Below, piece by piece: positions 12,308-42,338 of a DNA stretch of 43,598 nt. The translations under genes and the position numbers were made by a program. The stretch is from Pseudoruegeria sp. SK021 (GTDB lineage: Bacteria > Pseudomonadota > Alphaproteobacteria > Rhodobacterales > Rhodobacteraceae), in NCBI RefSeq assembly GCF_002119405.1, contig NZ_MTBG01000029.1, positions 1 through 43,598 on the forward strand, in the 5' to 3' direction. The notes under the pieces were generated by a model that searched no databases, was not told where the DNA came from, and saw only the letters and a program-made list of their open reading frames with translations. Position 1 is the first letter of the stretch, and the number at the start of each line of letters is the position of its first letter.

Positions 12308-12580
12308 ATGCACAGAAAAATGGCGGCCCGGGAATTGTCGATCCAAGTGGACGGCAAAACCATCGGATGTGAGCCAGGCCAGAGCGTCGCCTCCGCGTTA
12401 TTGGCGCAGGGAATCTATCGCTTCCGCACGAGCCCGAATGACCACCTGCCGCGCGGCCCGTTCTGCATGATGGGCGCGTGTCAGGAATGCGCGATCTTAA
12501 TTGACGGATCAATTCGACGCGCCTGCCAAACGGAAGTGGCCGAAGGGATGCGCGTTTGCCTCAAAGGGGCCTCGGCATGA
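12308..12580 (+). CDS. [2Fe-2S]-binding small subunit of an HcnA/OoxA-like oxidase, 90 aa
   Basis: This is the small ferredoxin-like subunit of a three-part flavoprotein dehydrogenase, of the same kind as hydrogen cyanide synthase HcnA, opine oxidase and D-hydroxyproline dehydrogenase. Four cysteines, C53, C58, C61 and C73 (FCMMGACQECAIL then RRACQ), match the C-x4-C-x2-C-x11-C pattern that holds a plant-type [2Fe-2S] cluster. The ATG at 12308 is chosen because it gives the family length and has a GTAAGGAC site ahead. Longer in-frame extensions would reach into the promoter. The stop overlaps the next gene (ATGA). Confidence 0.85.
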   Translation: MHRKMAARELSIQVDGKTIGCEPGQSVASALLAQGIYRFRTSPNDHLPRGPFCMMGACQECAILIDGSIRRACQTEVAEGMRVCLKGASA

Positions 12581-14007
12581 CGCCCCGCACTGAAATCGCA
12601 GATCTCATTGTGATCGGCGCAGGCCCTGCCGGCGCGAACGCCGCCCTTGCCGCCCATAATGCGGGGCTAAAAGTTGTGCTGGTCGATGAAGCGGCCCAAC
12701 CAGGCGGGCAAGTCTGGCGCGCACCTATCACCGCCAAAGCAAAGCAATCGCCGGTCAAAGACATTGACCGCAAGATGGGCGATGCCCTGCGTCAGCAACT
12801 GGTTTCCGCCAACATCCACATCTTGACGGATACGCAGGTCTGGTCGGCGGACCGGCAGCCCGAAGGGTTCGAAGTTGGGACGATCGGTGAGGCTGGCACT
12901 GTGTTCCTGCGTGCGCCCAGGCTGATCGCCGCCCCCGGTGCGTACGAACGCATTCTGCCATTCCCCGGCTGGACCATTCCGGGCGTGTTCGGGTTGGCGG
13001 CGGCAACTGCACTGCTGAAGGCCGAGAAAACCCTGCCCGGGCGCCGGATCATCGTGGCGGGCCAAGGGCCGTTGCTGATCGCGGTCGCGGCGCAGGCGGT
13101 GGCCCTTGGACTTCGGCCCGTTGCGATCGTTGACGCCGCCAGTCGAGCGGATTGGGCAAAGAGCCTCGCAGGATATGCCCGTCAGCCACGACAGCTGGCA
13201 CGCGGCATGAGATGGATGGCGCAACTGACCCGCGCCCGCGTGCCGTACTATCGACAACATGAAGTGTCCTCAGCAACCGGCGCGGACAGCTTGGCAGGCG
13301 TGACCCTCCGCTCTTTGAAAAGCGGGGAAACGCGCACTATCGACGTTGACACACTCTTTGTCGGCAACGGACTGACACCTGCCGATGAGGTGTTCCGCCT
13401 GCTTGGTGCCGATCAAGAGCCTTGCCCGATCAGCGGGACACAGCGCGTCGTTTGCGATGAATTGGGGCGCTGCTCTGTTCCGGGTCTTTATGCTGCGGGC
13501 GACGCCGCTGGTATCCGCGGGGCCCTTCCCGCCCTGCATCAGGGACGGATCGCAGGCCTTGCTGCGGCCCATGATGCGGGTGCCCTCTCCGGTGCCGCGC
13601 TTAGCGCCGCACTCGCGTCGTCGTCGCGCGCGCTGACGCAATTGCAGCCCTTTGCGGATGCGTCCTGCCGCTTGATGCGCCTGTCAGGGCAGCGGGTCGC
13701 GGCGGCGCCCGACGACACCATCATTTGCCGGTGCGAAGATGTCCGCGCTGGCGACATCCGCAAGGCCATCAACCAGGGGGCGGTCGATATCAATCAACTT
13801 AAACACTTTACCAGACTAGGGATGGGACCGTGTCAGGGCCGTATCTGCGCGGTCAACGCGGCAGAGATCATCCGTCAGGAAACCGGTGCCGCAGTCAATT
13901 CCACACGTCTGACCCCGCGCGGACCAATCCGCCCACTGGAGACAGCGCAATTGATTGGCGAGTTTGGCTATTCTGACATCCCTATTCCGAAACCGGCACC
14001 GCTATGA
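12577..14007 (+). CDS. FAD/NAD(P)-binding oxidoreductase with C-terminal [2Fe-2S] domain, HcnB/OoxA-like, 476 aa
   Basis: This is the middle-size subunit of the oxidase complex. It has an N-terminal dinucleotide fold (DLIVIGAGPAGANAAL, residues 9-24), a second nucleotide fold around RRIIVAGQGPLL, and the flavin-closing AAGDAAGIRGALPALHQGR segment. The C-terminal 95 residues carry a BFD-like cluster site with C384, C386, C419 and C424 (ICRCEDV then GPCQGRIC). The ATG at 12577 overlaps the upstream stop by 4 bp and gives the usual N-terminus, so the longer frame from 12556 is not used. The complex passes electrons from an amino acid or opine to an acceptor. Confidence 0.87.
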   Translation: MTPRTEIADLIVIGAGPAGANAALAAHNAGLKVVLVDEAAQPGGQVWRAPITAKAKQSPVKDIDRKMGDALRQQLVSANIHILTDTQVWSADRQPEGFEVGTIGEAGTVFLRAPRLIAAPGAYERILPFPGWTIPGVFGLAAATALLKAEKTLPGRRIIVAGQGPLLIAVAAQAVALGLRPVAIVDAASRADWAKSLAGYARQPRQLARGMRWMAQLTRARVPYYRQHEVSSATGADSLAGVTLRSLKSGETRTIDVDTLFVGNGLTPADEVFRLLGADQEPCPISGTQRVVCDELGRCSVPGLYAAGDAAGIRGALPALHQGRIAGLAAAHDAGALSGAALSAALASSSRALTQLQPFADASCRLMRLSGQRVAAAPDDTIICRCEDVRAGDIRKAINQGAVDINQLKHFTRLGMGPCQGRICAVNAAEIIRQETGAAVNSTRLTPRGPIRPLETAQLIGEFGYSDIPIPKPAPL

Positions 14008-15140
14008 GCACCGAAACCTGTGATCTGGCCGTCATTGGCGGCGGCGTGCATGGCGCAAGCGTAGCGTTGTTTGCCGCACGGGCAGGACTGCGTGTCACCC
14101 TGTTTGACGCGGATGCCTTGTGCCGCGCCGCATCGGGGACCAATGCCGGGACGCTGACCATGCAAATGACCCGTGCCGCGCTTATCCCGTACGCGATGGA
14201 GGCCCACAAAATGTGGACCGATGCGTCGCGCTGGCTTGGCCATGACGTCGGCGTTGTTGCGTGCGAGGGGCTGTCTTTGGCCTTTACCGAGCGCGAAGAG
14301 CAAATCTTGTCCGACCGCGCGACGGCGCGGGGCGCTGCGGGCGCACCGATCCGGCTGATCACGCCGGAAGAGACGTTGAAGATTGAACCCAATGCAAACC
14401 CGGGAATTCGCATGGCCAGCCATTGTGCGATTGATGGGTACGCCAACGCCTATCTCACCGGCATCGCCTTTCGCCGCGCCCTGCTGGAGGCAGGCGTCAC
14501 GATCCGAGAATATACGCCTGTCATCGGACTGGAGCCGACCGGCCAAGGTTATGATCTGAAACTGCGGGACGGCAAGGCCAGCGCGCGCCAAATCGTCCTT
14601 GCGGGTGGCGTTTGGCTTGAGCCGATGATGGAAATGCTCGGCCTCCGACTGGCGATCAAAACACTGGTGAACCAGTTGGCCGTGACAGAGCGCGCTGCCC
14701 CCCTCATGCGCACTGTCGTGTGCATCGCAAGCGGGCTGCTATCTTTGAAGCAGTTTCCACATGGCACCGTCGTCATTGGCGGAGGATGGCAAGGCACGGG
14801 CGACCGTGACACCAACAGTCACCGCGCAACCACAGAAAGTATGATCGGAAACGTCCGGCTGGCCGTACATGCCATTCCACGTTTGCGTCAAACCAGAATC
14901 GTCCGCAGTTGGACCGGGTTTGAATCCGAAACCGCCGACGCCCTTCCTGCACTTGGTCCGATCCCAGGCTTCGAGGGCGCATGGATATGCGGCGCCGTGC
15001 ATTCCGGCTATACCAGCGCCCCCTACACGGCACACTGCCTCACACAGGCTATTCTCGGGGGTGAACCCGACATGCCGCTATTCCCTATCGATCGACTTCT
15101 CACCGCCCCGTTGCGGGATCCTCAAAGGAGCACCCATTGA
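14004..15140 (+). CDS. DAO-type FAD-dependent oxidoreductase, HcnC/OoxB-like, 378 aa
   Basis: This is the substrate-oxidising flavoprotein of the complex, from the D-amino-acid oxidase/sarcosine oxidase family. The Rossmann motif is DLAVIGGGVHGASVALFAAR (residues 8-27), followed by the FDAD acidic end and the GTNAGTLTMQM flavin segment. Near the C-terminus are RSWTGFESETADALPALGPI and the AVHSGYTSAP flavin-contact motif typical of OoxB/HcnC. It overlaps the previous gene by 4 bp and the following gene by 4 bp. Candidate substrates are D-amino acids, D-hydroxyproline, opines or glycine-like compounds. The sequence does not discriminate between them. Confidence 0.85.
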   Translation: MSTETCDLAVIGGGVHGASVALFAARAGLRVTLFDADALCRAASGTNAGTLTMQMTRAALIPYAMEAHKMWTDASRWLGHDVGVVACEGLSLAFTEREEQILSDRATARGAAGAPIRLITPEETLKIEPNANPGIRMASHCAIDGYANAYLTGIAFRRALLEAGVTIREYTPVIGLEPTGQGYDLKLRDGKASARQIVLAGGVWLEPMMEMLGLRLAIKTLVNQLAVTERAAPLMRTVVCIASGLLSLKQFPHGTVVIGGGWQGTGDRDTNSHRATTESMIGNVRLAVHAIPRLRQTRIVRSWTGFESETADALPALGPIPGFEGAWICGAVHSGYTSAPYTAHCLTQAILGGEPDMPLFPIDRLLTAPLRDPQRSTH

Positions 15141-16090
15141 ACAGTTTCCTGTCTCCGGCCGCCCAAGCACTAACTGGCATCCACGCGGCCACCATTTGCC
15201 CGATGGACGCCGACGGTCAGATCGTCGAGAGCGAACTGACCCAGCATCTGAATGATATTTCCCATGCAGACGGCATACGCGGCCTTTTGTTGAATGGTCA
15301 CGCGGGCGAAGGCCACCTTCTGACCCGCGAGGAACGCAATCTAGTCCTTTCAGCCGCGCGCGCCTGCACACCGTCCGATTGCGTCCTGACCGCCGGAATT
15401 ACGTCGGAAAGCACTGCTGCGGCCTGCATTGAGGCCGAAGACGCCGCAAAGGCGGGTGCAGATGCAGTGCTTGTCTTTCAGCCGAACCACTGGGCTGGGG
15501 GCTGCGACGCCGCGATTGTCACCGCGCATCATCGGGCAATCGCGAACGCGTCGGGTCTGCCACTGGTGCTCTACCGCGCTCCGATTTCCGGGCATTTGTC
15601 CTATGACATGGCCGTCATGGAAAAATTGCTAGAGATTGATGCGGTCGCTGGCATCAAAGAAGGAAGTTGGGAAGTCGCGGCCTACGAAGAATTGTGGCGG
15701 CATGTGAAAGTCGCGCGGCCAGACATTTCCGTGATGGGCTCAGGCGATGAGCACCTTCTGACCTCCTATATGATCGGCAGCGATGGCAGCCAAGTCTCAC
15801 TGGCAGCGATCATCCCCGATACGATCACCGCCCTTTTCAACACGGCAGAGGCAAGTGATTGGGCAAAGGCGCGTCAATTGCACGACGTTCTCTACCCCCT
15901 GTCGACGGCGATCTACCGCGATAGACCGGGATATTTGGCGACCGCGCGCCTGAAAACCTGCCTGAAATTGCTGGGTCGGATCGGCCATGACACCACGAAA
16001 GCGCCGATCCGCCCGCTTCGCGCCGACGAAGTATCCCGCCTACAAGCGGTCCTTGAAGCGGCCGGCCTGATGTTAAAAGAACGGATCTGA
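15137..16090 (+). CDS. DapA-family (dihydrodipicolinate synthase-like) aldolase/deaminase, 317 aa
   Basis: This is a class I Schiff-base TIM-barrel enzyme. The catalytic Lys (about K174, AGIKEGSW) and Tyr (about Y146, LPLVLYRAP) are present, but the usual GTTGE loop reads NGHAGEG at residues 53-59, so it is not a true DapA. Start is a TTG at 15137 with AAAGGAG 7 nt upstream, and it overlaps the flavoprotein stop. In hydroxyproline catabolism a DapA-family deaminase converts the imine made by a D-hydroxyproline dehydrogenase of this three-subunit kind, which would fit the order here. No proline racemase is visible, so another imine or keto acid is equally possible. Confidence 0.82.
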   Translation: MNSFLSPAAQALTGIHAATICPMDADGQIVESELTQHLNDISHADGIRGLLLNGHAGEGHLLTREERNLVLSAARACTPSDCVLTAGITSESTAAACIEAEDAAKAGADAVLVFQPNHWAGGCDAAIVTAHHRAIANASGLPLVLYRAPISGHLSYDMAVMEKLLEIDAVAGIKEGSWEVAAYEELWRHVKVARPDISVMGSGDEHLLTSYMIGSDGSQVSLAAIIPDTITALFNTAEASDWAKARQLHDVLYPLSTAIYRDRPGYLATARLKTCLKLLGRIGHDTTKAPIRPLRADEVSRLQAVLEAAGLMLKERI

Positions 16091-16092
16091 AC

Positions 16093-16848
16093 ATGCGACA
16101 ATCCCTTGGCGAAAGCCGGTCACGCTATGCCCGCGATCATGCCCTCGTAAGCCCGGATAGCCACGAACGCACAACGCTGCCCCATTGGTCCGGCGCAGAG
16201 ACGATCTTTCTGATCACACCGCAGGCCGGGGCGCGTTTTTCGTTGTTTCTGGTCACATCGACAGGCGGGCTGTCTGCGGACGAACCGCCCCACCACGCCG
16301 AACGGGTTGTGCTGGTGCGCAGCGGTCGGATTGACCTGACGGTCGACGGTCAGTCGCATACCTTGGATGCGGACGGTTACGCCTATCTCCCCGCTGGTGT
16401 CCCGCACCAATTGCGCGCGTCAGCAGAGGCGAACTTGATCGTTCTAGAGCGGCCCTATCGCCCGGCCCCGACCGGTGGCACGCCGAAAGTTGTGGTGTCG
16501 TCCATATCCAAACTGCCAAAGACCGCCATGAAAGGCGATGAACGCTTACAACTGCAAAAACTCCTGCCGGGCGGTCCAGAGTTCGACATGGAACTCAACA
16601 TCATGGATTTCGCTCCGGGCGCCTCGCTGCCCTACGTCGAAACCCATTTTATGGAGCATGGCCTTGTCATGCTGAACGGTGGCGGAATCTACCGGTTGGG
16701 CGATCAGTGGTATTCGGTTGAAGCCGATGATGCCATTTGGATGGGGCCGTTTTGCCCGCAATGGTTCGGCGCGATCGGTCGCGAAAATGCGCGATATTTG
16801 ATCTACAAAAACTGGAACCGTGATCCGCTGGACGGCGGGTCAGCGTAA
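16093..16848 (+). CDS. Bicupin of the (S)-ureidoglycine aminohydrolase (AllE) family, 251 aa
   Basis: This is a two-cupin metalloenzyme. The N-terminal cupin contains EPPHHAERVVLVRSGRIDL, and the C-terminal cupin contains YVETHFMEHGLVMLNGGGIY with the metal-binding Glu, His and Glu. That is followed by GDQWYSVEADDAIWMGPFCP and QWFGAIG, which are near-signature for AllE. The family releases ammonia from ureidoglycine to give ureidoglycolate and CO2-linked products in allantoin breakdown. No allantoicase or ureidoglycolate genes are nearby, so a related amine-releasing or isomerising step on the product of the oxidase/DapA-like pair is plausible. It converges on and overlaps the gntR gene by 9 bp. 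Confidence 0.82.
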   Translation: MRQSLGESRSRYARDHALVSPDSHERTTLPHWSGAETIFLITPQAGARFSLFLVTSTGGLSADEPPHHAERVVLVRSGRIDLTVDGQSHTLDADGYAYLPAGVPHQLRASAEANLIVLERPYRPAPTGGTPKVVVSSISKLPKTAMKGDERLQLQKLLPGGPEFDMELNIMDFAPGASLPYVETHFMEHGLVMLNGGGIYRLGDQWYSVEADDAIWMGPFCPQWFGAIGRENARYLIYKNWNRDPLDGGSA

Positions 16849-17490
16849 CAGTTTTAGAGAATAGGTCATCAGGCTTCGAAGATGCGTCCTGACCGCCTTG
16901 CGCGCGAGGGACGCATCATTTGCTTCCAAGGCATCCAGAATAGCATCGTGCTCTTCGAAATCCGCCTCGACCCGGGCTTCAAGTCCGGCGATTTCGAACA
17001 GCCGCGTTGTGACGCGAAGCGTTTCGATGATTCCGAACATCACGTCGTTGCCGTCTGAATTGCCGTATAACTGATGCACCGTATCATCGGACTGCCAATG
17101 GGCGTCAGTTTGAACACGGGGCAGACGCCGCAGGTCTGCGATCTCGTCCCGCGCGGCCTGAATTGCGGCGCGGTCCAACCGGCCCACTGCGTTGGCGGCG
17201 GCTTCGGGCTCCAACAGATAGCGCACTTTCAAACTTCGGAGGTATTCCGTCATCTCGACGCGACGCACCAAATAGGATCGCCCCGAGGACCGGGAAATCA
17301 TGCCCTGCCCCTCCAGTCGCTGCAGCGCCTCGCGCAAGGGCGTGCGCGAGATCCCCAGTTTTTCAGCCAGTCGCTGTTCCAGAATCGTCTCACCGCCCCG
17401 AAGCTCTCGTTTTTGGATCAACTCGGTGATCTGGCGGTGGGCACGATCCGAAAGAGCGCCGGCAGGTTTGGAATCTTTTTGAATAGGCAT
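16840..17490 (-). CDS. GntR family transcriptional regulator, FCD (FadR/VanR) type, 216 aa
   Basis: It has an N-terminal winged helix (ITELIQKRELRGGETILEQR then AEKLGISRTPLREALQRLEG, about residues 20-65) and a C-terminal all-helical FCD ligand domain. The metal-binding pattern there is visible as D...H in SDDTVHQLYG and two later His in EEHDAILDAL and VRTHLRSLM. Such regulators usually repress a nearby catabolic operon and respond to its substrate. The gene lies 18 bp after the hydantoinase remnant and is probably co-transcribed with it. It likely acts on the palindromes at 12223-12234 and 17909-17920. Its 3' end overlaps the convergent bicupin gene. Confidence 0.88.
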   Translation of the reverse strand: MPIQKDSKPAGALSDRAHRQITELIQKRELRGGETILEQRLAEKLGISRTPLREALQRLEGQGMISRSSGRSYLVRRVEMTEYLRSLKVRYLLEPEAAANAVGRLDRAAIQAARDEIADLRRLPRVQTDAHWQSDDTVHQLYGNSDGNDVMFGIIETLRVTTRLFEIAGLEARVEADFEEHDAILDALEANDASLARKAVRTHLRSLMTYSLKLLR

Positions 17491-18316: not shown

Positions 18317-19747
18317 TTAAACCGGCGCCGGCGTGAAGGGGATATCACTGGCCCCGGCAATAACGGATCGCCCCCCATTGGCGGCGATCACCTCGGCTTG
18401 CGCGGCAAATGCCTGCGCGTTCACCGTATCCGGATCGCAGACTTGACGCAAACAGGCGGCAAGGTCGGATCGAACCACCGCATAATTCGGGTCGGTGCCA
18501 AGGTCGCACTCTTCATTCGGGTCGGTGTCCAAATTGAACAGCTGTGGCTGCGTGCCGACATATTCGACGTATTTCCACGGCCCCTTCCGCAGCGCGAACA
18601 CGCCGCAATTGGACCCAATGGCATGGTATTCCGCGAAAACGGCACGGTCCTGCGCGCCGTTGGCCAAATCGATCAATGACGCACCGGGCAGGCTGGTTGC
18701 CGTGGCAACGCCGGTGGCAGCAAGGGCCGTCGGCGCGATATCAATCAGCGACACCGGGCAATCGGACACCTTGCCCTCTGGCACGCCCTGACCGGCGATG
18801 ATCATCGGCACACCTAGGGAATCCTCATACATCACCGATTTGCCCCACAACTGGCGGTTGCCCAGATTGTCGCCATGGTCCGACGTGTAAATGACCCGGG
18901 TCGAACCCGACAGTCCAGTATCCTCAAGGGCGGTCAGAACCTGACCGATCAGGCGATCCAGACAAGTGATCATCCCCATATAGGCCCGCAGAGCAACGGC
19001 GCGTTGGGCATCGTCAAAGTGACGATCGTAATTCATTTGGGTGCGCGTCCAGTTTAGGGCCGGATGATCCGGCGACGGGCTGGTCAGCCCTTCGCGCAGT
19101 TGGTCCAACCCGTAATCGGCATACAGATCGTAATCCGCTTGTGGCGCGATCATCGGGAAATGCGGCATCACAAAGCTGAGGAACAACGCAAATCGCCGGC
19201 CTTCAGGATCTGCGCCGCGCCGTTTCAGCCACTCGGTGGCAGTGTCGGCGATGCGGTGATCGTACCGGCCATAGCTGCTGTCACCGGGACCCGCCGTGAC
19301 GGCTATGTCATCCAGACCGGCCTTCGGCAACGGATCGGACCGGAACAAGCCTTTCAGATCGCCCTTGCCGTCCACCACATGCAGCGGGATCAACTCTTCG
19401 GTAAAGCCATAGTCGTCGTCGCCCCGATAATGCAGCTTGCCAATCGACACCACATCGACCCCAGCGTCCCGCAGCATATGGTGCCAACTTGGCTCTGCCC
19501 CCGTGTACGGGGTTGCATTGTCCCAACACCCGATCTGATGCGGATAGAGGCCCGTTGCCAGCGATCCACGCGACGGGACGCAAATCGGGCTATTGCAGTA
19601 AGCGTTGGTAAAGCGGGTCCCACGCGCCGCAAGGGCGTCAAGGTTCGGGGTCTGCACCAGCCTGTGCCCGTAGCATCCCGAGACCTTACGGTTGTGTTCG
19701 TCCGAGAGAATAAACAGCAGGTTCTGCGGCGTGTGACGGTTGGTCAT
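18317..19747 (-). CDS. Sulfatase (formylglycine type), 476 aa
   Basis: This is an alkaline-phosphatase-fold sulfuric ester hydrolase. The modification motif ICVPSRGSLATG puts the formylglycine precursor at C56 with R60. Other active-site residues are present: D16-E17-H18 (LSDEHNR), K104 and H106 (GKLHYRG), H196 (VMPHFPM), D290-H291 (TSDHGDNLG) and K303. There is no signal peptide, so it works in the cytoplasm on an imported substrate, and it requires a formylglycine-generating enzyme encoded elsewhere. Length and motifs resemble choline-sulfatase or phosphonate-monoesterase relatives. The exact ester is unknown. It is the last gene of the minus-strand sulfatase operon. A ribosome site AAAGGAAA precedes the ATG. 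Confidence 0.88.
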   Translation of the reverse strand: MTNRHTPQNLLFILSDEHNRKVSGCYGHRLVQTPNLDALAARGTRFTNAYCNSPICVPSRGSLATGLYPHQIGCWDNATPYTGAEPSWHHMLRDAGVDVVSIGKLHYRGDDDYGFTEELIPLHVVDGKGDLKGLFRSDPLPKAGLDDIAVTAGPGDSSYGRYDHRIADTATEWLKRRGADPEGRRFALFLSFVMPHFPMIAPQADYDLYADYGLDQLREGLTSPSPDHPALNWTRTQMNYDRHFDDAQRAVALRAYMGMITCLDRLIGQVLTALEDTGLSGSTRVIYTSDHGDNLGNRQLWGKSVMYEDSLGVPMIIAGQGVPEGKVSDCPVSLIDIAPTALAATGVATATSLPGASLIDLANGAQDRAVFAEYHAIGSNCGVFALRKGPWKYVEYVGTQPQLFNLDTDPNEECDLGTDPNYAVVRSDLAACLRQVCDPDTVNAQAFAAQAEVIAANGGRSVIAGASDIPFTPAPV

Positions 19748-19905: not shown

Positions 19906-21063
19906 TCACCAATTTGTCACGGACCCGTCCGCGCGCGTCAGATGCGGGCATTCGATCGGGTCGGCCCCATCGGCGGCACGGATCGCGTCCTCGTCGACGA
20001 CGATGCCCAACCCCGGTGCTTCGGTGACGATATAATTCGCCCCTTGCAGGTCAACCTGCCCCGGAAACAACTTGGGGCAGTGAAACCCAAGCGCCTCAGT
20101 TGGGGCCTGCCGGGTTTCCACCCAGCTCAGGTTCGGCACAGCCATGGCCAAATGCGCCGTCGCCGCCGTACAGACCGGCCCCAATGGGTTATGCGGCATC
20201 AGGTCCACATAGTGCAGCTCGCACCAGCCCGCGATTTTCATCGCTTCGGTGAAGCCGCCGATATTGCAAATATCTAGCCGCATATACTGCGTCAGCCCCT
20301 GTTCAACATAGGGGGCCGCCTGCCATTTTGAGGCAAATTCTTCGCCGACGGCAAAGGGAATATCGGTCATGCCGCGCAAGGCCTTATAGGCCGACGGGTC
20401 TTCGCAGCGGATCGGTTCTTCAAGGAAGTCCAGCGTGCCGGGAGGCAACATATTACAGAAGCTGGCGGTCTCTGCCACCGACAGACGATGATGATAGTCG
20501 ATCCCCAGAACCGGTTCGGGGCCGATTTCGGCCCGCAATGCGATCAAGGTCTGGGCGGTGCGGGCAATCGACATCCGCGGCGAAAACACCCCATGTGACT
20601 CTTCATAGCTGGGCACAACCCGGACACAGTCCCAACCCGCCGCAATCAGGGATTGGACCTCGGCCAAGGAGTCGTCGATGGTCGCGCCGGGCGCGCTGGC
20701 GAAGCTTGGCACATGGTCACGATGGCGCCCGCCCAAAAGTTGATAGACCGGCACCCCCAACGATTGGCCAAGGATGTCATGCAGCGCGATATCCAACGCC
20801 GATTGCGCCGCCGTCAGAACCCGGCCGCCTTCGAAATACTGGCTGCGATAAAGCTCTTGCCAGATGCGCCCGATCCGGCGGGAATCTTGTCCGATCAGGA
20901 CCTTGGAGAAACAGTCAATCGCCGCGGCCACCGCAGTTTCACGCGACGACAGGCCGGATTCGCCCCACCCCACCACGCCATCTTCGGTCTGGACCCGCAC
21001 CAACATTTGGTTGCGCGTGCCGACGCGGATGACGAATGTTTCGATGCCTTCAATGCGGCTCAT
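19906..21063 (-). CDS. Enolase-superfamily sugar-acid dehydratase, galactonate-dehydratase-like, 385 aa
   Basis: This belongs to the mandelate racemase/muconate lactonising group. The N-terminal capping domain (residues 1-115, with GVVGWGESGLSSRET) is followed by the barrel. Ligands are D189 within GIDYHHRLS, E215/E216 (FLEEPIR) and E241/E242 (VGEEFASKW). H191 and H291 (PHNPLGPVCTAA) correspond to the acid-base His residues of D-galactonate dehydratase. It likely dehydrates an aldonic or uronic acid to a 2-keto-3-deoxy acid. The ATG at 21063 is preferred because AGGAAAT precedes it. A longer frame to 21117 has an unrelated N-terminus. It lies between two sulfatase genes, which suggests it acts on the desulfated sugar acid. 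Confidence 0.85.
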   Translation of the reverse strand: MSRIEGIETFVIRVGTRNQMLVRVQTEDGVVGWGESGLSSRETAVAAAIDCFSKVLIGQDSRRIGRIWQELYRSQYFEGGRVLTAAQSALDIALHDILGQSLGVPVYQLLGGRHRDHVPSFASAPGATIDDSLAEVQSLIAAGWDCVRVVPSYEESHGVFSPRMSIARTAQTLIALRAEIGPEPVLGIDYHHRLSVAETASFCNMLPPGTLDFLEEPIRCEDPSAYKALRGMTDIPFAVGEEFASKWQAAPYVEQGLTQYMRLDICNIGGFTEAMKIAGWCELHYVDLMPHNPLGPVCTAATAHLAMAVPNLSWVETRQAPTEALGFHCPKLFPGQVDLQGANYIVTEAPGLGIVVDEDAIRAADGADPIECPHLTRADGSVTNW

Positions 21064-22510: not shown

Positions 22511-23710
22511 TCAGATCAACTCGCCTTGGGGTTGGGTCCCATAGGTGGCATCGGCGATGACCAGATCGGCCAGATGCTGACCCAAAGTGTCGCCCAAGTC
22601 GTGAGCGGACTCTTTCAGTTGTGCGGCCATGGCCACCACCCGATCTCGTCGGCTTGCGAATTGATCGACCAGCCCCTGCGGTGACGGGCTTGGCAGGTTG
22701 AACAGGTTGAACTCTTCCTCTGGGTCGATCCGCAGATCATACAGGCGGCATTCCCCACCATCGGCACTGAGGATCAGCTTATGCCGTCCGTCCCAAATTG
22801 CCCGCTGCGCCCAGTCGGGGAACACGGCAAACGGTGCGAGGCCGTCCTTAAAGGTGACGTCGATATGGCGACGGTAGATGTTGTGCAGATAGATGCGGTC
22901 GCGCCACTGCGCGTCATCAACCTCGCTCTGCAACAACGGCGTCAGATCACGTCCCTGAATTGCCGGAATGGCGGCACCTGCAAATCGTGCCAGTGTCGGG
23001 GCAAGGTCGTGCAGCCCGACCAGCGCATCACAAATCCGCCCCGCTTCAATCCGCCCCGGTGCCGAGATCAACAGCGGCACGCGGACGCTTTCATCGTGGC
23101 AACTGTTGGCATGATTAACGAAATCGCGATAGCGAAAGGTCTCACCGCTGAGCGACGTATAGGCCAGAACCGTTTGGTCCCGGCGACCGCTGTTATCCAA
23201 CGCGGCAATCATCTGCCCGACGGCGGCGTCATAGGCAGTGATCGCGGCAAAATAGCTGGCAAGCGGGACGCCATTGCCGCGATATGGCTTCAGGTGGTCA
23301 ACATGGATGTCATCGAAATCCCAGATCGACGGCATCTGGATCAGCACAGCCCGCGGTGCAGGGGTGGGTTTCTCAAGGATCTCGACGGCAGCCTGCGTTG
23401 TCTGGGCCAGCCCCCCATCCGGGACCACCTGCTCTAAGGCATAGCCAACGGCGACAAGGGCTTTGCCCAACGGACTGTCGTTGAAGGGCGGGATGCCGGC
23501 AGCGCCCTCGTCGGGATAGGTGCCGGACAACAGCGCGGCACCTGCCGGTCCGGCGTCGGGAAATACGGTTACGGCCCGGTCAAACCGTGCGCCAGCCGCT
23601 GCCAATCCATCCAGATGCGGCGTCTTGATAAGCGCGTTTCCAACACATTGCAGGAAGTCGCCCCGATGATGGTTTCCGACAATCAGGATTAAATCGGGTT
23701 GCTGACTCAT
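22511..23710 (-). CDS. Sulfatase-fold protein lacking all catalytic residues (probable pseudoenzyme), 399 aa
   Basis: The overall chain aligns with the neighbouring sulfatase from start (PDLILIVGNHHRGD) to end (RLYDLRIDPEEEFNLFNLPS), so the fold is clear. Yet the formylglycine motif CTPAR is replaced by AGPAG (A53, G57), the N-terminal DQ by NH (N13-H14), the DH of the SDHGE loop by LS (L187-S188), the Lys that contacts sulfate by A201, and the GKWH segment is gone. It therefore cannot hydrolyse sulfate esters by the known mechanism. The frame is intact, in operon with an active sulfatase and 72 bp from the transporter binding protein, so it is likely expressed. A role as binding partner, sensor or scaffold is inference. 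The ATG at 23710 gives the family N-terminus. Confidence 0.78.
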   Translation of the reverse strand: MSQQPDLILIVGNHHRGDFLQCVGNALIKTPHLDGLAAAGARFDRAVTVFPDAGPAGAALLSGTYPDEGAAGIPPFNDSPLGKALVAVGYALEQVVPDGGLAQTTQAAVEILEKPTPAPRAVLIQMPSIWDFDDIHVDHLKPYRGNGVPLASYFAAITAYDAAVGQMIAALDNSGRRDQTVLAYTSLSGETFRYRDFVNHANSCHDESVRVPLLISAPGRIEAGRICDALVGLHDLAPTLARFAGAAIPAIQGRDLTPLLQSEVDDAQWRDRIYLHNIYRRHIDVTFKDGLAPFAVFPDWAQRAIWDGRHKLILSADGGECRLYDLRIDPEEEFNLFNLPSPSPQGLVDQFASRRDRVVAMAAQLKESAHDLGDTLGQHLADLVIADATYGTQPQGELI

Positions 23711-23782
23711 GGGTCTCTCACTTTGAAAATTGGCGTGCACCGGTGCCGCCACACGTTGACAGCACCGGAAAATTGGGTGGGA

Positions 23783-25345
23783 TCAGCTTTTTGGATCGAC
23801 CCAAACATCCCAAGCGCGGAACACCCGGTAGGGTTTGAAGTCGTGAACCTCGTTGCGCACCGCCAGATAAAGACCGGTCGCACCAACACGGATCGAATAG
23901 GCATTGTTCAACACGCCAGCCTGATAATCCTCGAAGCCCTGTTTGCGGTCGGCAAAGGTCAAGCCGGTCCGGGTGCGTTCGGCAGCGTCTTCCAGTTCGG
24001 GGTCGATATAGCCTTGCAGATTGTTGGCACCGGCGAAGTGGCGCAGCATCCCGAACGGACCGATTGACGGGGCCAGACCGAAGCCACCGATGAGGATGTC
24101 CCACTTGTCCTTTTGACCCAGCATCGCGGTCCAGGTCGCGGTGTCCACCGCATTAATGGTCGTATTGACCCCTAGTTTTTTCAGCTGATCTTGCAGAGCA
24201 ATGGAATAATCACGCGGAACTTGCTGATCACCAGTGACCAGAATGGTCAGGTCTTCGCCCGCGTAGCCGCTTTTGGCCAACAGGTCCTTGGCACGGTCCA
24301 CATCGTTGAGATTATAAAACTCTTTCCCAGCATCCGAGTAGTAAGGGTAGCCTTCGTACTGCCAGCCATGGCCAAGCTCAAAGTTCCCGCCCGTGGCGAA
24401 ATCAAGCAGAATGCCATAGTCCAACCCCACCTGCACCGCCCGGCGGAAATCCAAGTTGTCGCCCGGAGCACGTGAGACATTGAAGGTCTGGTGCAGCATC
24501 ATCCAAGGCAGAAGCTTTTCAGCGGTGGCAACACCGCTGGCGTTCAGTTGCGGCACGTCGGTTGCGGCGATCTGATTGGCGACATGATACTCACCGGTCA
24601 GCATCCCGGCCAGTCTGGCACCTTGCTCTGGCACATTGCGAAAGGTCACGCTGTCCACATAGGCTGTGCGCTTGCCGCCGAAGCCGTCCGGCCCGTCAAA
24701 TCCGGGGCTTGGGGCATAATCGGCGAACCGCTCCAGCGTGATGTGGCTATCGGGCACCCATTCCACGAACTTGAACGGCCCCGTGCCAATCGGTTCAAAT
24801 TCATCCCGCGACTTGACGGCGATCTCGGCCGGTAGAATGCCGACGATGACCCGCGGCGAACTGAGGTTTTCAAGAAAGGTCGGATAGGGCTGCGACATGT
24901 GGACGACGATGGTCGTATCATCGACCCGTTCGAACGAGGCCACCGGCCCCATAATTTCGCGATCAATCCCAGTTTCTTTCATCCGGGTCCAAGAAGCGAT
25001 CACATCATCCACATCCATAATGTCGCCGTTATGAAACGGCACACCGTCGCGGATATGAAAGGTGTAGCTCATCGCATCGGGCGCCACCTCGAAACTTTCC
25101 GCAAGCTGGGGAATGATATTGCCCGTCTCCCCCACCGTGATGACACCCTCGAAGATGTTCGAGGCAATGTCCCGCGTCTCGCCGCTGGTCGAAGCCTGTG
25201 GGTCCAGCTCGCCAAGGTTGCTGGCGCTTGCGATGATCAACTCCCCCCCGATCACGGGGTCCTGCGCAATGGCGATACTGCCACTTGCGCCCAGCAGACC
25301 GATGGCGGCGACAAGCGTGACGCCGAATGGAAAATTGTGATGCAT
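23783..25345 (-). CDS. Peptide/opine-type ABC transporter solute-binding protein (SBP_bac_5), 520 aa
   Basis: This is the periplasmic receptor of a DppA/OppA-type importer. After a signal peptide (VAAIGLLGASGSIAIAQ, cleavage near residue 28) it shows GGELIIASASNLGELDPQAS, then YTFHIRDGVPFHNGDIMDVD and GTGPFKFVEW, the diagnostic family segments. The ATG at 25345 is chosen because GGGAGGA lies upstream and the signal peptide then starts correctly. It reads divergently from the lysR gene, whose downstream neighbours encode the matching permeases and ATPases. Family members bind peptides, glycosides, nickel chelates or oligosaccharides, so a sulfated ligand is possible. Confidence 0.88.
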   Translation of the reverse strand: MHHNFPFGVTLVAAIGLLGASGSIAIAQDPVIGGELIIASASNLGELDPQASTSGETRDIASNIFEGVITVGETGNIIPQLAESFEVAPDAMSYTFHIRDGVPFHNGDIMDVDDVIASWTRMKETGIDREIMGPVASFERVDDTTIVVHMSQPYPTFLENLSSPRVIVGILPAEIAVKSRDEFEPIGTGPFKFVEWVPDSHITLERFADYAPSPGFDGPDGFGGKRTAYVDSVTFRNVPEQGARLAGMLTGEYHVANQIAATDVPQLNASGVATAEKLLPWMMLHQTFNVSRAPGDNLDFRRAVQVGLDYGILLDFATGGNFELGHGWQYEGYPYYSDAGKEFYNLNDVDRAKDLLAKSGYAGEDLTILVTGDQQVPRDYSIALQDQLKKLGVNTTINAVDTATWTAMLGQKDKWDILIGGFGLAPSIGPFGMLRHFAGANNLQGYIDPELEDAAERTRTGLTFADRKQGFEDYQAGVLNNAYSIRVGATGLYLAVRNEVHDFKPYRVFRAWDVWVDPKS

Positions 25346-25426
25346 GGTGTCCTCCCAAGTGCATTTTTCTATGCCCATCACCGCATTTGTCAGCCGGTTC
25401 CGCAATACGAAGGCACGACCCAAAGC

Positions 25427-25525: not shown

Positions 25526-26476
25526 ATGGAGACACGACACGCCCGAATGGTGCGAGTCATTGCGGAAACCGGACGATTTTCGCTAGCGGCAGAGCGCCTC
25601 GGACTGGGCCAACCGGCCCTTACAAAAATCGTTCAAAGGGTCGAAGACGAATTTGGCGTTCCGCTGTTCACACGCGGCCCGCAAGGAACCAGCTTGGCCC
25701 CGTTCGGCCATCTTTTCCTTGAATATGCCGAAGTCATCGAACGGGAAACACGGGACCTTGCCTCGGCTGCGCTGGCGATGCGCAAAGGCGAAAGCGGTCA
25801 TTTCCGTATCGGCGCAGGTCAGTCATGGATCCACAACCTGATGCCAGCCATCATCCAGCAGGTCCATTGTGCGCGGCCTAATCTCTCGCTCAGTGTTGTG
25901 ACCGGATCAGTTCCGGGATTGGTCGACGAACTGCTCGCCGGTCGCATCGACCTTGCCTTTGTGTCGATGACCGTCCCGCTGTCCGACGACCTTTGCAGTG
26001 AAGAATTGCTACGGGACCAACTCAGCGTGATCGCGCGCCCGGACCATCCCCTCACCCAATTGGGACGGCCCTGCACCATAGAAGAGATGCTGGAATACGG
26101 CTGGATCATCGGCGAAAAAATCCAGACAGACTTGGCCTATACTTGGCTTCAGGACGCGACCAAGAAACTGGGGTGCCCATTGCCGAAAGTGGTTCTGGAA
26201 ACCCATCAGAAACATCTGATGGTCGAACTCATCCGCAACACCGACTTGCTTGCGTTCGAACCGGTTCATTCCCCGGCATTGACGAACGGTGATGTTGTCC
26301 TCGTCTCGGGGCAGCGGATTCAGCGGCCGCGTGGCACCGGAATGATCTGGCGCAAAAATCGGGTGGTGCCGGGAATGCAGTTCATCATGGACGTGGCGCG
26401 CAGCATTTCAAGCGACCGAAACCCCGAGCAGTTTGAACCGCGCCCCGAGGGGCGTGCGCAAAAGGTGACGAAGTGA
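25526..26476 (+). CDS. LysR family transcriptional regulator, 316 aa
   Basis: It has an N-terminal winged helix-turn-helix (GRFSLAAERLGLGQPALTKI then VQRVEDEFGVPLFTRGPQG, about residues 13-52) and a C-terminal effector-binding domain starting HFRIGAGQSWIHNLMPAIIQ. It probably controls the divergent binding-protein/sulfatase operon and its own transporter genes, with a small ligand such as the imported compound. Its stop overlaps the GTG start of the permease gene (GTGA), so regulator and transporter are made from one message. A GGGAGGG site precedes the ATG. Confidence 0.9.
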   Translation: METRHARMVRVIAETGRFSLAAERLGLGQPALTKIVQRVEDEFGVPLFTRGPQGTSLAPFGHLFLEYAEVIERETRDLASAALAMRKGESGHFRIGAGQSWIHNLMPAIIQQVHCARPNLSLSVVTGSVPGLVDELLAGRIDLAFVSMTVPLSDDLCSEELLRDQLSVIARPDHPLTQLGRPCTIEEMLEYGWIIGEKIQTDLAYTWLQDATKKLGCPLPKVVLETHQKHLMVELIRNTDLLAFEPVHSPALTNGDVVLVSGQRIQRPRGTGMIWRKNRVVPGMQFIMDVARSISSDRNPEQFEPRPEGRAQKVTK

Positions 26477-27417
26477 TTTTGTATATTCTGAAACGATTGC
26501 TCAGTGCGATCCCGGTCTTGCTGATCGTCAGCGTCATCGCCTTTGTGATCATCCAACTGGTCCCCGGCGACGGGGCCTCGGTCATTGCGGGGCAGGACGC
26601 CTCCATTGAAGAAATCGAATTTGTCCGCAATCAGATGGGCCTCAATGAGCCATGGCCGCTGCGGTTGGGCGGCTGGATGACCGGTCTGTTACATGGCGAT
26701 CTGGGCTATTCCTACATGCTTAAGCGTCCGGTTGCGTCGGCGATCCTCGAACGGTTGCCTGTCACCCTGTCGTTGGCGTTTCTGTCGATCGCCTTCGCAT
26801 CCGTCTTCGGGGTTCTGATCGGGACACTTGCCGCCGTGTTTCATCGCACATGGATCGATGCGAGCGTGATGAGCCTGTCACTGGTCGGGGTTTCCGTTCC
26901 AAATTTCTGGTTTGGCCTGGTCGCAATCCTGGTCTTTTCCGTCGGTCTGGGCTGGTTCCCAAGCGGCGGGTTTGTCCCACCGTCCGAGTCGATCACGGGC
27001 TGGTTGCAGTCCATGGCCCTGCCGGCAATCACGCTTGGCACCGGCACGATGGGCCTGATTTCCCGGTTCACGCGCTCTGTCATGCTAGAGCAACTGGGGC
27101 AGGATTATGTCCGCACTGCCGAAGCGAAAGGCCTGTTGGCCCGGCAAGTCATCGGAAAGCACGCGTTGAAGAACGCCATGATCCCGATTTTAACCGTCAT
27201 CGGCATCACCTTTTCGCTGACTATGGCCGGGGCGATCGTCATTGAATCTGTCTTCTCCCTGAACGGTCTTGGCCGCTTGATGCTGCATGCCGTCACCCGC
27301 CGCGACTATCCGGTGCTGCAAGGTGGCTTGGTGGTCATCGCCTTTTCGTTCGTGTTCATCAATCTGCTGGTGGACATCCTATATTCTTGGCTGGATCCAC
27401 GGGTGCGCTATGACTGA
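26473..27417 (+). CDS. Peptide-type ABC transporter permease, DppB family, 314 aa
   Basis: This is an inner-membrane permease with six spans. It opens with ILKRLLSAIPVLLIVSVIAF and has the family VIQLVPGD-like segment IIQLVPGDGASVIAGQ. The EAA loop reads RTAEAKGLLARQVIGKHALK near residues 214-233, and the end VDILYSWLDPRVRYD is typical of DppB/OppB. The GTG start overlaps the lysR stop and has AAGGTG ahead. The partner permease overlaps its end by 8 bp. Confidence 0.92.
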   Translation: MILYILKRLLSAIPVLLIVSVIAFVIIQLVPGDGASVIAGQDASIEEIEFVRNQMGLNEPWPLRLGGWMTGLLHGDLGYSYMLKRPVASAILERLPVTLSLAFLSIAFASVFGVLIGTLAAVFHRTWIDASVMSLSLVGVSVPNFWFGLVAILVFSVGLGWFPSGGFVPPSESITGWLQSMALPAITLGTGTMGLISRFTRSVMLEQLGQDYVRTAEAKGLLARQVIGKHALKNAMIPILTVIGITFSLTMAGAIVIESVFSLNGLGRLMLHAVTRRDYPVLQGGLVVIAFSFVFINLLVDILYSWLDPRVRYD

Positions 27418-28279
27418 ATCCTCTTTTCCCGCAACCGCTTCCAAGGCCCGTCAGATGCAACTTCTTCTGCGGGGGAACCTTCCACTCACGATTGGCGGCG
27501 CCATTTTGGCCTGCATCGTTTTGATAACCGTAATCGGGCCGTTCGTGATGCCGTATGGTCCCGAAGACACATCGCTAATGGACCGCTTCAAAGCGCCCAG
27601 TGTGGCGCACCTTGCCGGGACTGACGCGTTTGGGCGGGACGTGATGACCCGGGTGATCGATGGCGCCCATATATCGCTGTCGATTGGCCTTTCTGTCGTG
27701 ATCATTACGATGTCGCTCGGCATCGTGATCGGCGCGATTGCCGGCTACTTTCCCAAACTCGACAATATCATCATGCGGGTGATGGACGCCGGAGAAGCCT
27801 TTCCAACCCTGCTTTTGGCCATCGCATTGGCCGCTGTGCTTGGCCCAGGTGTTGTCAATGTCGTGCTGGCCTTGGGCATTGCCTATACCCCGCGCACCGC
27901 ACGGATTGTGCGCGCGTCAGTTCTGATCTTGTCCCAGCAGCAGTTCGTCGAAGCGGCGCGCGCCAGCAACGCCAGCCACCTGAGGATCATTGCAAAACAC
28001 CTGATCCCCAATGCATTGGCCCCGGTGATCGTTCAAATGACTTTTGTTTTTGCAGACGCCGTTCTGGCCGAAGCCGCACTAAGTTTCATTGGCGTTGGCC
28101 CGCCGCCGCCCTCGCCGACGTGGGGAAATATCATCGCAGATGGCAGAAGCTATCTTTTCTCCGCCCCTTGGATTTCGCTGTTTCCTGGTCTGGCGATCTT
28201 CTTCACGGTTCTGTCGTTGAATTTGGTTGGCGACGGCCTGCGCGATCAACTTGATCCGCGCCTCAAGAGATTGGATTGA
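27410..28279 (+). CDS. Peptide-type ABC transporter permease, DppC family, 289 aa
   Basis: This is the second permease of the importer. A short N-terminal cytoplasmic part is followed by the IGPFVMPYGPEDTSLMDRF periplasmic segment and HLAGTDAFGRDVMTRVIDGA, hallmarks of DppC/OppC. The EAA loop reads EAARASNASHLRIIAKH, and the end VGDGLRDQLDPRL is typical. The ATG at 27410 overlaps the DppB stop by 8 bp. A longer frame from 27287 lies within dppB and is rejected. Confidence 0.92.
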   Translation: MTESSFPATASKARQMQLLLRGNLPLTIGGAILACIVLITVIGPFVMPYGPEDTSLMDRFKAPSVAHLAGTDAFGRDVMTRVIDGAHISLSIGLSVVIITMSLGIVIGAIAGYFPKLDNIIMRVMDAGEAFPTLLLAIALAAVLGPGVVNVVLALGIAYTPRTARIVRASVLILSQQQFVEAARASNASHLRIIAKHLIPNALAPVIVQMTFVFADAVLAEAALSFIGVGPPPPSPTWGNIIADGRSYLFSAPWISLFPGLAIFFTVLSLNLVGDGLRDQLDPRLKRLD

Positions 28280-28282
28280 TCC

Positions 28283-29269
28283 ATGACACAGCCACTTCTA
28301 GAGGTCGAAGACCTCACCATCTCACTCGGTTCCGGGGCGTCGCGTGTCGACATTGTCGATGGCGTCAGTTTCACGGTTGGCGCGAATGAGCCGATCGGGA
28401 TCGTCGGTGAATCCGGCAGCGGCAAAAGCATGATCGCCTTGGCGATCATGGGCCTCCTCCCGAAAGCCCTGAAAATCACCCGCGGGACAATCCGTTTCGA
28501 AGGACGCGAAATCCAAGCCTTAAGCAAAGCCGAAATGCGGCGTTTGCGCGGGGCCGAGATCGGGATGATCTTTCAAGAGCCCTCTACCGCTTTGAACCCG
28601 GTTTTCACCACGGGCGCCCAGTTGGTCGAGGTTTTACAGCGGCACACCCGCATGTCCAAATCCGAGGCCCGAGACCGGACAATCGAATTGTTTCGCCAAG
28701 TCGGCATCCCCTCCCCCGCCGAGCGGTTCAACGATTATCCGCATCAGATGTCTGGCGGGATGCGACAGCGGGTGATGATCGCAATGGCGCTGGCCTGCAA
28801 ACCCAAGCTGATCATCGCGGACGAACCAACCACGGCGCTGGATGCGACGATCCAGCTTCAAATCATGAATGTCTTGGTGCGGTTGCGGGCCGAAACCGGC
28901 GTCGCGGTGGTTTTCATCAGCCATGACTTGGCACTTGTGGCAAGCTTCGCGGAGCGGATTCAAGTGATGTATGCTGGTCGACTGGCGGAAACCGGACCGA
29001 CCGATCTGGTCTTCAATGCCCCAAACCACCCCTACACCGAAGGCCTGATGCACTGCGCCTTTGGGTTGGAGGACGATGTCACCCGGTTGCCGACCATCGA
29101 AGGCCGTGTCCCAAGCCCATCTCACTTTCCGAAAGGCTGCCGGTTTTCCACCCGTTGCAGCCATGTTCGGGACATGTGTCATAATTTGGTCCCGCCCAAA
29201 ATACCCGTTGGCGACGATCACCTATCCGCCTGTTTTCGGCACACTCATTTCCAGACGGTGACTTCGTGA
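28283..29269 (+). CDS. Peptide-type ABC transporter ATPase, DppD family, 328 aa
   Basis: This is a cytoplasmic ATPase with Walker A GESGSGKS at residues 42-49, signature MSGGMRQRV, and Walker [13 protein letters not shown]. The C-terminal oligopeptide-transporter extension carries cysteines in [14 protein letters not shown], which in DppD bind an iron-sulfur cluster. It starts 3 bp after the DppC stop and its stop overlaps the next ATPase gene. Confidence 0.92.
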
Positions 29270-30300
29270 TGACAGCCCAACCTGCCGCCCATGACATTTT
29301 GTTCTCAGTCCGCGGCCTGAGCAAGCATTTCACTGCGAAACGAACCCTGCCCTTTAGCGGACCACCAAAGGTTGTGCGGGCGGTCGACAAGTTGACCTTC
29401 GACATCCACAGGGGCGAAACCCTTGGCCTTGTCGGCGAAAGCGGCTGTGGCAAGACAACCACTAGCCGTCTTTTGATCCGGTTGCTCAACGCAACCTCGG
29501 GCGAGGTCGACTATGACGGCGCGCCGCTGTTGCCCCGCCAAGGGTCCGCGCTGTTTGATTTTCGCCATGATGTGCAGATCGTCTTCCAAGACCCGTTCGG
29601 GTCCCTCAATCCGCGCATGACAGCCGAACAGGTGATTGCCGAACCGCTGATCACATCAACCTCAATGACCGCCGCGCAGCGCAAGGCGCGGGTGGCCGAA
29701 TTGCTTGGCCTTGTGGGGTTATCTGCCGAACACGCCAAGCGGTATCCACACCAGTTCTCGGGCGGCCAGCGGCAACGGATCGGAATCGCGCGGGCCTTGG
29801 CGCTACATCCAAAATTCCTCGTCTGCGACGAACCTGTTTCGGCTTTGGACCTGTCTATTCAAGCCCAGATCGTCAATCTGCTGCAGGACTTGCAACGGGA
29901 TCTTGGACTGACGGTTCTGTTTGTCGCCCATGACCTGCAAGTGGTGCGTCATGTATCGGATCGGGTGGGGGTGATGTATTTGGGTCGGATGGTCGAACTT
30001 GCGGATAGCGAGACGATTTTCAACCGCTCGCGGCACCCATACACCCGGCTTCTCTTGGCCTCGTCGCCCCGCCTTCGCAAATCCAAGGTGCCCGACCTCG
30101 CCCGCGAACCCGTCGAGCAGGCCGATATTCCCAGCCCGCTTGCGCCACCGCCCGGGTGTCATTTCCACACCCGCTGCCCCTTGGCGACGGCGCGCTGTCA
30201 GGCCGAGGTTCCCCTCTGGCGCTCGATCGGCGACGGACACCACGTCATGTGCCATCACGCCGAACAGGTCGGGGGGCCTGTCGCAAAATCTGTGGGCTAG
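29269..30300 (+). CDS. Peptide-type ABC transporter ATPase, DppF family, 343 aa
   Basis: This is the partner ATPase of the heterodimer. Walker A is GESGCGKTT, the signature [12 protein letters not shown] and Walker [13 protein letters not shown]. The C-terminal extension has cysteines in [14 protein letters not shown]. The ATG at 29269 is preferred to the GTG at 29266 because the spacing from GGTGA is better; the protein differs by one residue. It is the last gene of the lysR-dppBCDF unit. Confidence 0.9.
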
Positions 30301-41588: not shown

Positions 41589-42338
41589 TCACTGAAGAAA
41601 GAAGACCACGGTCAAAACAGCACCCACGATGATGATTGCTACCCGTAAGGGCTCGGTGCGCTTGATCTTCCGGGCATATTTTGCGCCGATATAGCCGCCG
41701 ATTGTTGTTGAAACAGCGAGCACGGCTGCTGACTCCCATGCGATCAATCCGGCGGTTGCATAAGTGGTCACGGACACGAGTGACAAGACTGCGGAAAGCA
41801 GGTTCTTTAAGCCATTCATGCCATGCAGATCCCGGAAGCCGATCAATCCGAAGACCGCCAGCAGCATGATGCCAAGGCCACCGTTGAAGTAGCCGCCGTA
41901 GGCCGCCACAATGGCAATACCGACAGCCGAAAGAACCGGCCCGGCAACTCCGCCCCCCTTGGCGCGCAAATGCGCGATCAGTCGAGGCCCAAGCGCGAAC
42001 AGTGCCGTTGCCAAAAGCAGAAGCCAAGGCACGATGCCGATGAACGCATCCCCGGGCGTAGCCAGAAGAAGCCCCGCACCGATCAACCCGCCACCAGCCG
42101 CGACCGCCACGATCGTCCGAAGACGCAAGGCCCCCTCTGCTTTGATGTCGTCCCGGTATGCCCATGCACTTCCAATATAGCCCGGCAGGGCCGTTAGCGT
42201 TGCTGTGGCGTTGGCCATGATGGGCGGCACGCCAAGCCAGACCAACGCCGGAAAACTGAGCAGCGTTCCGCCCCCAGCGATAGCGTTCACGCCGCCTGCC
42301 AACAGTCCGGCGACCACAAGTACGAAAGTGGAGAACAT
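41589..42338 (-). CDS. TauE/SafE family permease (sulfite/organosulfonate exporter type), 249 aa
   Basis: This is an inner-membrane carrier with about eight spans in two repeated halves. Family motifs are VAGLLAGGVNAIAGGGTLLS (residues 8-27) with PALVWLGVPPIMANATATLT, and in the second half AAYGGYFNGGLGIMLLAVFG and GLKNLLSAVLSLVSV. The ATG at 42338 is preceded by an AGAGGACCTCT palindrome (42341-42351) that contains the ribosome site. Members export sulfite, sulfoacetate or similar anions. In a window with sulfatases, export of a sulfur anion is plausible but not shown. Confidence 0.88.
   Translation of the reverse strand: MFSTFVLVVAGLLAGGVNAIAGGGTLLSFPALVWLGVPPIMANATATLTALPGYIGSAWAYRDDIKAEGALRLRTIVAVAAGGGLIGAGLLLATPGDAFIGIVPWLLLLATALFALGPRLIAHLRAKGGGVAGPVLSAVGIAIVAAYGGYFNGGLGIMLLAVFGLIGFRDLHGMNGLKNLLSAVLSLVSVTTYATAGLIAWESAAVLAVSTTIGGYIGAKYARKIKRTEPLRVAIIIVGAVLTVVFFLQ

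Follow-up and report, generated by a model that had tools for sequence, protein, structure and literature searches.

A conserved sulfatase-fold pseudoenzyme encoded beside an intact sulfatase in marine bacteria: a possible non-catalytic partner

The window analysed here (43,598 nt, the whole of contig C29 of a 3.97-Mb genome) encodes a pseudosulfatase, that is, a protein that keeps the sulfatase fold, has lost the residues of sulfatase chemistry and is under purifying selection, directly upstream of an intact, related sulfatase that we call SulfA (Table 1). We propose, as something close to an even call, that this disarmed, conserved, single-origin relative of SulfA works as a non-catalytic partner of that cytosolic-type enzyme.

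Table 1. Features of the window that bear on the pseudosulfatase.
Feature	Coordinates	Strand	Evidence or remark
SulfB, sulfatase, intact CVPSR motif	18317..19747	-	Pfam and NCBIfam
Sugar-acid dehydratase-like gene, enolase superfamily	19906..21063	-	PF13378, PF02746
SulfA, sulfatase with intact motifs, 430 aa	21176..22468	-	PF00884, E 7.4e-46
Pseudosulfatase, 399 aa	22511..23710	-	ORF, Pfam, orthologues, model and fold match
Conserved pseudosulfatase block, codons 276-306	22793..22885	-	predicted long hairpin, C-terminal subdomain
Codons 187-188, place of the metal-binding DH pair	23147..23152	-	LS here; LS/LS/VV across lineages
Codon 53, place of the formylglycine Cys	23552..23554	-	Ala in the window; A/A/P across lineages
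Stem-loop, 12 pairs, between binding-protein gene and pseudosulfatase	23740..23768	-	fold prediction
Solute-binding protein, SBP_bac_5	23783..25345	-	PF00496, E 2.5e-71
LysR regulator, divergent	25526..26476	+	PF03466, PF00126
Opp-type transporter, two permeases and two ATPases	26473..30300	+	BPD_transp_1, OppC_N, ABC_tran, oligo_HPY

The pseudosulfatase frame runs uninterrupted from an ATG at 23710 to a stop codon that ends at 22511, in agreement with an earlier note on this DNA that had called the frame intact and the start normal. The same note held that the sulfatase scaffold is kept from end to end. This is borne out by Pfam matches to both Sulfatase (PF00884, E 1.1e-17) and SGSH_C (PF16347, E 2.6e-15), by the BLASTP alignment to SulfA (E 7e-44, 29% identity, 62 gaps in 387 columns), its nearest relative within its own genome, and by a predicted model with the full fold, N-terminal and C-terminal parts included. 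No signal peptide was visible when the N-termini of the pseudosulfatase and SulfA were inspected, and residues 6-12 of the pseudosulfatase already form the first strand of the model; we take both proteins to be cytosolic.

The minus strand carries, in order of reading, the SBP_bac_5 binding protein (start codon picked by eye within the listed ORF 23783-25423), the pseudosulfatase, SulfA, the enolase-superfamily gene and SulfB. Gaps of 72 and 42 nt flank the pseudosulfatase, and strand and spacing suggest an operon; promoter and terminator scans gave scores within the shuffle range. SulfA has CTPAR, GKWH, PPHDP, SDHG and the Lys, and SulfB is 61% identical to a Marinovum gene of the same island. 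Two active sulfatases had been placed alongside the pseudosulfatase: the motifs of both are indeed intact, which is the sense in which we call them active, but SulfB is not adjacent to SulfA, the enolase-superfamily gene (galactonate dehydratase-like, with a score under the curated cut-off) standing between them. SulfA could undergo maturation, since two genes of the FGE family (E 1e-79 and 2.9e-75) are present in the genome.

The stem-loop between the binding-protein gene and the pseudosulfatase has an energy ordinary for its composition (z -0.55). Stem-loops occupy the same place in Phaeobacter (L012 8905-8985, 12 pairs, z -3.38) and Marinovum (L010 13858-14003, 13 pairs, z -1.80), and in the three lineages the pairing is perfect, the sequences differ and no U run follows. 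In other binding-protein operons such stem-loops set the expression ratio. This one may do the same, and could make the expression of the pseudosulfatase and SulfA unequal to that of the binding protein; it lends no support to a pairing of the two proteins. Elsewhere in the window, 12556-17490 holds FAD oxidoreductases (Pyr_redox_2 with Fer2_BFD, DAO) together with a gene of the DHDPS family, a cupin and a GntR regulator, a cluster that resembles hydroxyproline or opine catabolism. A gene of the TauE/SafE family (PF01925), whose members are exporters of sulfur oxyanions, lies on the same contig as the sulfatases at 41589-42338.

Carriers of the pseudosulfatase are few. A tblastn search of 72,556 plasmids matched 257 records; among the 30 matches listed, four cover at least 80% at one place, and the first (42% identity over 99%, on pMaD5 of Marinovum algicola DG 898) is the only one that we read as an orthologue, the others listed being 22-38% identical (for instance H10, 24%, annotated 'sulfatase', from an archaeon). 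Two further carriers, Phaeobacter sp. J2-8 (64% identity) and strain FF3 of M. algicola (42%), came from a scan of the genomes of 84,980 species, which relies on two short peptide patterns and may miss carriers. No relative was confirmed among 37 stretches when the window protein was the sole query, and 2 of 48 were confirmed with a two-row alignment. Within the window's own genus the only match among seven genomes was the window genome itself, its genus-mates having none to either the pseudosulfatase or SulfA. Searches of family (2 of 394 genomes, the window's own and one with an intact SulfA-like protein), order (1 of 390) and class (1 of 385) used samples of larger groups that may overlap, with up to four candidates scored per genome. 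Of four genomes searched in the genus to which Phaeobacter J2-8 and M. algicola FF3 are assigned, two carry a match.

In all four carriers (the window, Phaeobacter sp. J2-8 and the two M. algicola strains) the order binding protein, pseudosulfatase, SulfA is the same, SulfA lies directly downstream of the pseudosulfatase, and LysR and permease are divergent; the co-occurrence with the adjacent sulfatase that the earlier note had raised is thus found in 4/4. Identities of the Phaeobacter and Marinovum proteins to those of the window are 77% and 61% for SulfA, 75% and 60% for the binding protein, 85% and 77% for the first permease, and 68% and 56% for LysR. The island is plasmid-borne in M. algicola (pMaD5, L010, 143401 bp; L013 contig, 143373 bp) and missing from the genus-mates of the window genome, which suggests horizontal spread. 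In strain FF3 the binding-protein gene lacks a few dozen bases toward its 3' end compared with DG 898 (L013 near 8824; L010 13767-13809), and its frame stops about 30 codons earlier. Four more SulfA-like proteins (43-48% identity, among the 394 family genomes) have no pseudosulfatase within the 18.5-19.5 kb fetched around each. Their four distant islands hold a binding protein and permease of the same type, and 11 of 11 sulfatase genes there keep CxPxR. A CVPFR sulfatase lies beside the binding-protein gene in each (L029 12338-13933, L030 4838-6286, L031 4583-5998, L032 5569-7110), and these four form their own clade.

To follow the catalytic residues, ten active-site positions of AtsA, taken with a set of fold residues from the SulfAtlas paper (PMC5066984), were placed on SulfA by motif and read across the three pseudosulfatase lineages, in the order window/Phaeobacter/Marinovum. 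Besides the nucleophile (Table 1), we found N/D/N in place of Asp13, H/H/R for Asp14, G/M/R for Arg55, W/W/G for His211, L/L/V for Asp317, S/S/V for Asn318 and A/A/G for Lys375, while the places of Lys113 and His115 are deleted in all three. Eight of the ten positions are therefore gone from every lineage. Of the metal ligands (Asp13, Asp14, Asp317, Asn318) the sole survivor is Asp13, and only in Phaeobacter.

The individual changes listed by the earlier note are mostly as it had described them, with some exceptions. SDHG to SLSG and active-site Lys to Ala are seen in the alignment. CTPAR has become AGPAG in the window, but the change of Arg is not universal, Marinovum keeping the Arg of CxPxR; likewise DQ has become NH, but the Phaeobacter orthologue keeps the first metal Asp. 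GKWH is gone, by deletion of the segment and not by substitution as had been claimed. The His of PPHDP, which was not on that list, is absent too.

The note had also proposed that the changes fall selectively on catalytic positions. In seven intact SulfA-type relatives 112 columns are invariant, 10 catalytic and 102 other; all three pseudosulfatases have altered or deleted 8/10 of the former versus 36/102 of the latter (one-sided Fisher p 0.008). Dropping gapped columns gave the same picture (6/8 versus 23/88, p 0.009). The equivalents of the AtsA fold residues Asp291, Thr310, Gly319, Asp409 and Thr413, placed by spacing and motif, are kept in 3/3 lineages. By these alignments the catalytic loss is selective, more than chance would give, and the protein is a homologue of an enzyme family that lacks essential catalytic residues; we infer that it has no catalytic activity.

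Loss of catalytic residues, together with a divergence faster than that of SulfA (64% and 42% identity versus 77% and 61%), is also what a pseudogene in decay, in frame by chance, might display. Codon analysis argues strongly against this. Between the two M. algicola strains 20 of 405 pseudosulfatase codons differ, 4 of them nonsynonymously, with no internal stops and no gaps (omega 0.051; LRT 37.7 against omega = 1); in the same strains SulfA differs at 16 of 415 codons, 3 nonsynonymous (omega 0.051), and the binding protein at 16 of 484 aligned codons, 1 nonsynonymous (omega 0.013). Since synonymous sites are saturated between the window and Phaeobacter, this pair was fitted with a fixed dS of 2.5, chosen because its other genes fit 2.0 to 2.9. 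Omega was then about 0.10 (-lnL 2664.5 versus 2798.4 at omega = 1); with dS fixed from 1 to 6 it drops from 0.26 to 0.04, the likelihood still climbing with dS.

These values indicate that the gene is kept by purifying selection. Two signs of decay named by the earlier note, orthologues with a Cys or Ser nucleophile and a dN/dS near 1 with frameshifts, are both missing: the nucleophile place holds A, A and P in the orthologues found, and the frame is open in 4/4 carriers. Its central claim, a conserved pseudoenzyme beside intact sulfatases and not simple decay, therefore stands. With a single origin and a kept position besides, we give decay hardly any credence, and reject it on the codon analysis and the conserved gene order.

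In two trees (the second from a rebuilt alignment) the pseudosulfatases form one clade with support 100/100, in or beside the SulfA subfamily, and on this phylogeny they are of single origin. The best tree puts them outside all seven SulfA-type proteins (support 88/88 and 82/80); placing them beside the local SulfA (p-AU 0.18) or with the distant SulfA-like proteins (p-AU 0.12) was not rejected.

We compared the N and C parts of the protein, taking the point where the SGSH_C match begins as the dividing line (Pfam boundaries). Between the window and Phaeobacter, identity in the pseudosulfatase is 122/204 in the N part and 96/136 in the C part; in SulfA it is 210/246 and 97/130. The reversal appears in all three pairs, which are not independent (interaction z 3.24, 3.24 and 3.93). 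The C part is conserved about equally in the two proteins, and the N part of the pseudosulfatase is what dropped. Judged by these identities, the constraint on the pseudosulfatase has shifted away from its catalytic half and toward the C-terminal subdomain. Conservation peaks at 276-337 (52/62 in the pseudosulfatase and 38/56 in SulfA, window versus Phaeobacter), with a borderline contrast (p 0.052) over boundaries picked after viewing the alignment. Conservation between the window and Marinovum is poor in the C-terminal helices 338-399 (14/62, under SulfA's 13/41), which leaves the hairpin block as the only good docking candidate.

The protein could catalyse a new reaction, at a site relocated to the C-terminal subdomain of the sulfatase scaffold, where His276, Arg281, His282 and others are conserved. 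At 37 positions the three pseudosulfatases share a residue that none of the seven intact relatives has, and 12 of these fall within 276-306, in the most conserved region of the protein, a count that comes partly from columns where the relatives have gaps. No metal site is evident, however, and Pfam found no cofactor motif, and we hold this explanation to be rather improbable.

A second possibility is that the dead sulfatase is a ligand-binding sensor or carrier, which would bind the sulfated compound after import, or the product of its desulfation, with no hydrolysis, and hand it on or signal its presence, for example to the regulator. In all carriers its gene immediately follows that of the solute-binding protein, and this position, the modelled fold and the purifying selection would all suit such a role. 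The residues that hold sulfate and metal are nonetheless lost, the N-terminal half with the pocket is the less conserved one, and the loop 193-204 beside the old active site has a pLDDT under 50 in the model; we consider such a function unlikely, if less so than a new activity.

The evidence leans toward a partnership with SulfA without proving it. That the pseudosulfatase is a non-catalytic SulfA subunit is suggested by its adjacency, its paralogy, the presence of SulfA in 4/4 carriers and the constraint kept in its C-terminal part. The two proteins would form a hetero-oligomer, with the pseudosulfatase docking through its C-terminal subdomain, mainly the block 276-306, and affecting the stability, active-site entrance or specificity of SulfA, whose substrate would be a sulfated compound imported by the Opp-type transporter. 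Against this stand the low model confidence at the hairpin tip, the borderline 276-337 contrast and the faster divergence of the pseudosulfatase. In addition, the four SulfA-like proteins with no pseudosulfatase nearby indicate that a SulfA of this kind does not always need one. More tentatively still, the business end may have moved from the pocket to the C-terminal hairpin block, making the protein a dedicated subunit that activates a cytosolic-type sulfatase or sets its specificity; this would be the first such pseudosulfatase family, and it would travel with an Opp-type importer on roseobacter replicons.

Some marine bacteria, then, retain a dead sulfatase copy beside an intact sulfatase and an uptake system. 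Its chemical machinery is lost yet the gene is still protected by selection, so that a helper or binding role is probable. A selected-for dead sulfatase adjoining an intact one is a clean system for studying the reuse of a hydrolase fold as partner or sensor, and may be relevant to the uptake and intracellular desulfation of sulfated compounds in marine roseobacters. It also concerns annotation: sulfatases are annotated by fold, and dead paralogues can hence be counted as enzymes. As an example, the dead orthologue MALG_04486 (L010 14001-15218, CP010860.1) carries the name 'Arylsulfatase A' in its public record, likely a misannotation.

Among the matches listed from 5.39 million open papers, judged by titles and abstract openings, we found no conserved bacterial pseudosulfatase. 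The nearest known proteins are the S1 formylglycine sulfatases (PF00884; SulfAtlas S1, PMC5066984), with which the pseudosulfatase shares the whole fold, both Pfam parts and the fold residues. Unlike them, it has no nucleophile (Cys or Ser in CxPxR), metal ligands, GKWH, PPH or active-site Lys, with Lys113, His115, His211 and Lys375 missing in 3/3 lineages; failing the nucleophile and metal features that define S1, it is not filed there. The SulfAtlas paper mentions nine sequences that have lost only the Arg and are possibly inactive (PMC5066984). YejM/PbgA likewise uses an arylsulfatase-like fold outside sulfate-ester catabolism, in a regulatory role, but is described as a membrane protein with an intact metal site and phosphatase activity (PMC7576196), whereas the metal site of the pseudosulfatase is lost. 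The choline sulfatase SmCS, of the same superfamily, is oligomeric, and its C-terminal tails cross to the adjoining subunit and build its active-site entrance; when 12 residues are removed, kcat/KM for choline sulfate falls 2.5 x 10^3-fold (PMC5870055). SmCS is a homo-oligomer of active subunits, unlike the pair proposed here. Dead paralogues that activate live ones have precedents in the prozymes of trypanosome AdoMetDC and deoxyhypusine synthase (PMC5201418, PMC3663545). Their folds and organisms are unrelated to ours; the likeness is that a dead paralogue is retained beside a live one, and the pseudosulfatase is genetically linked to SulfA in 4/4 carriers.
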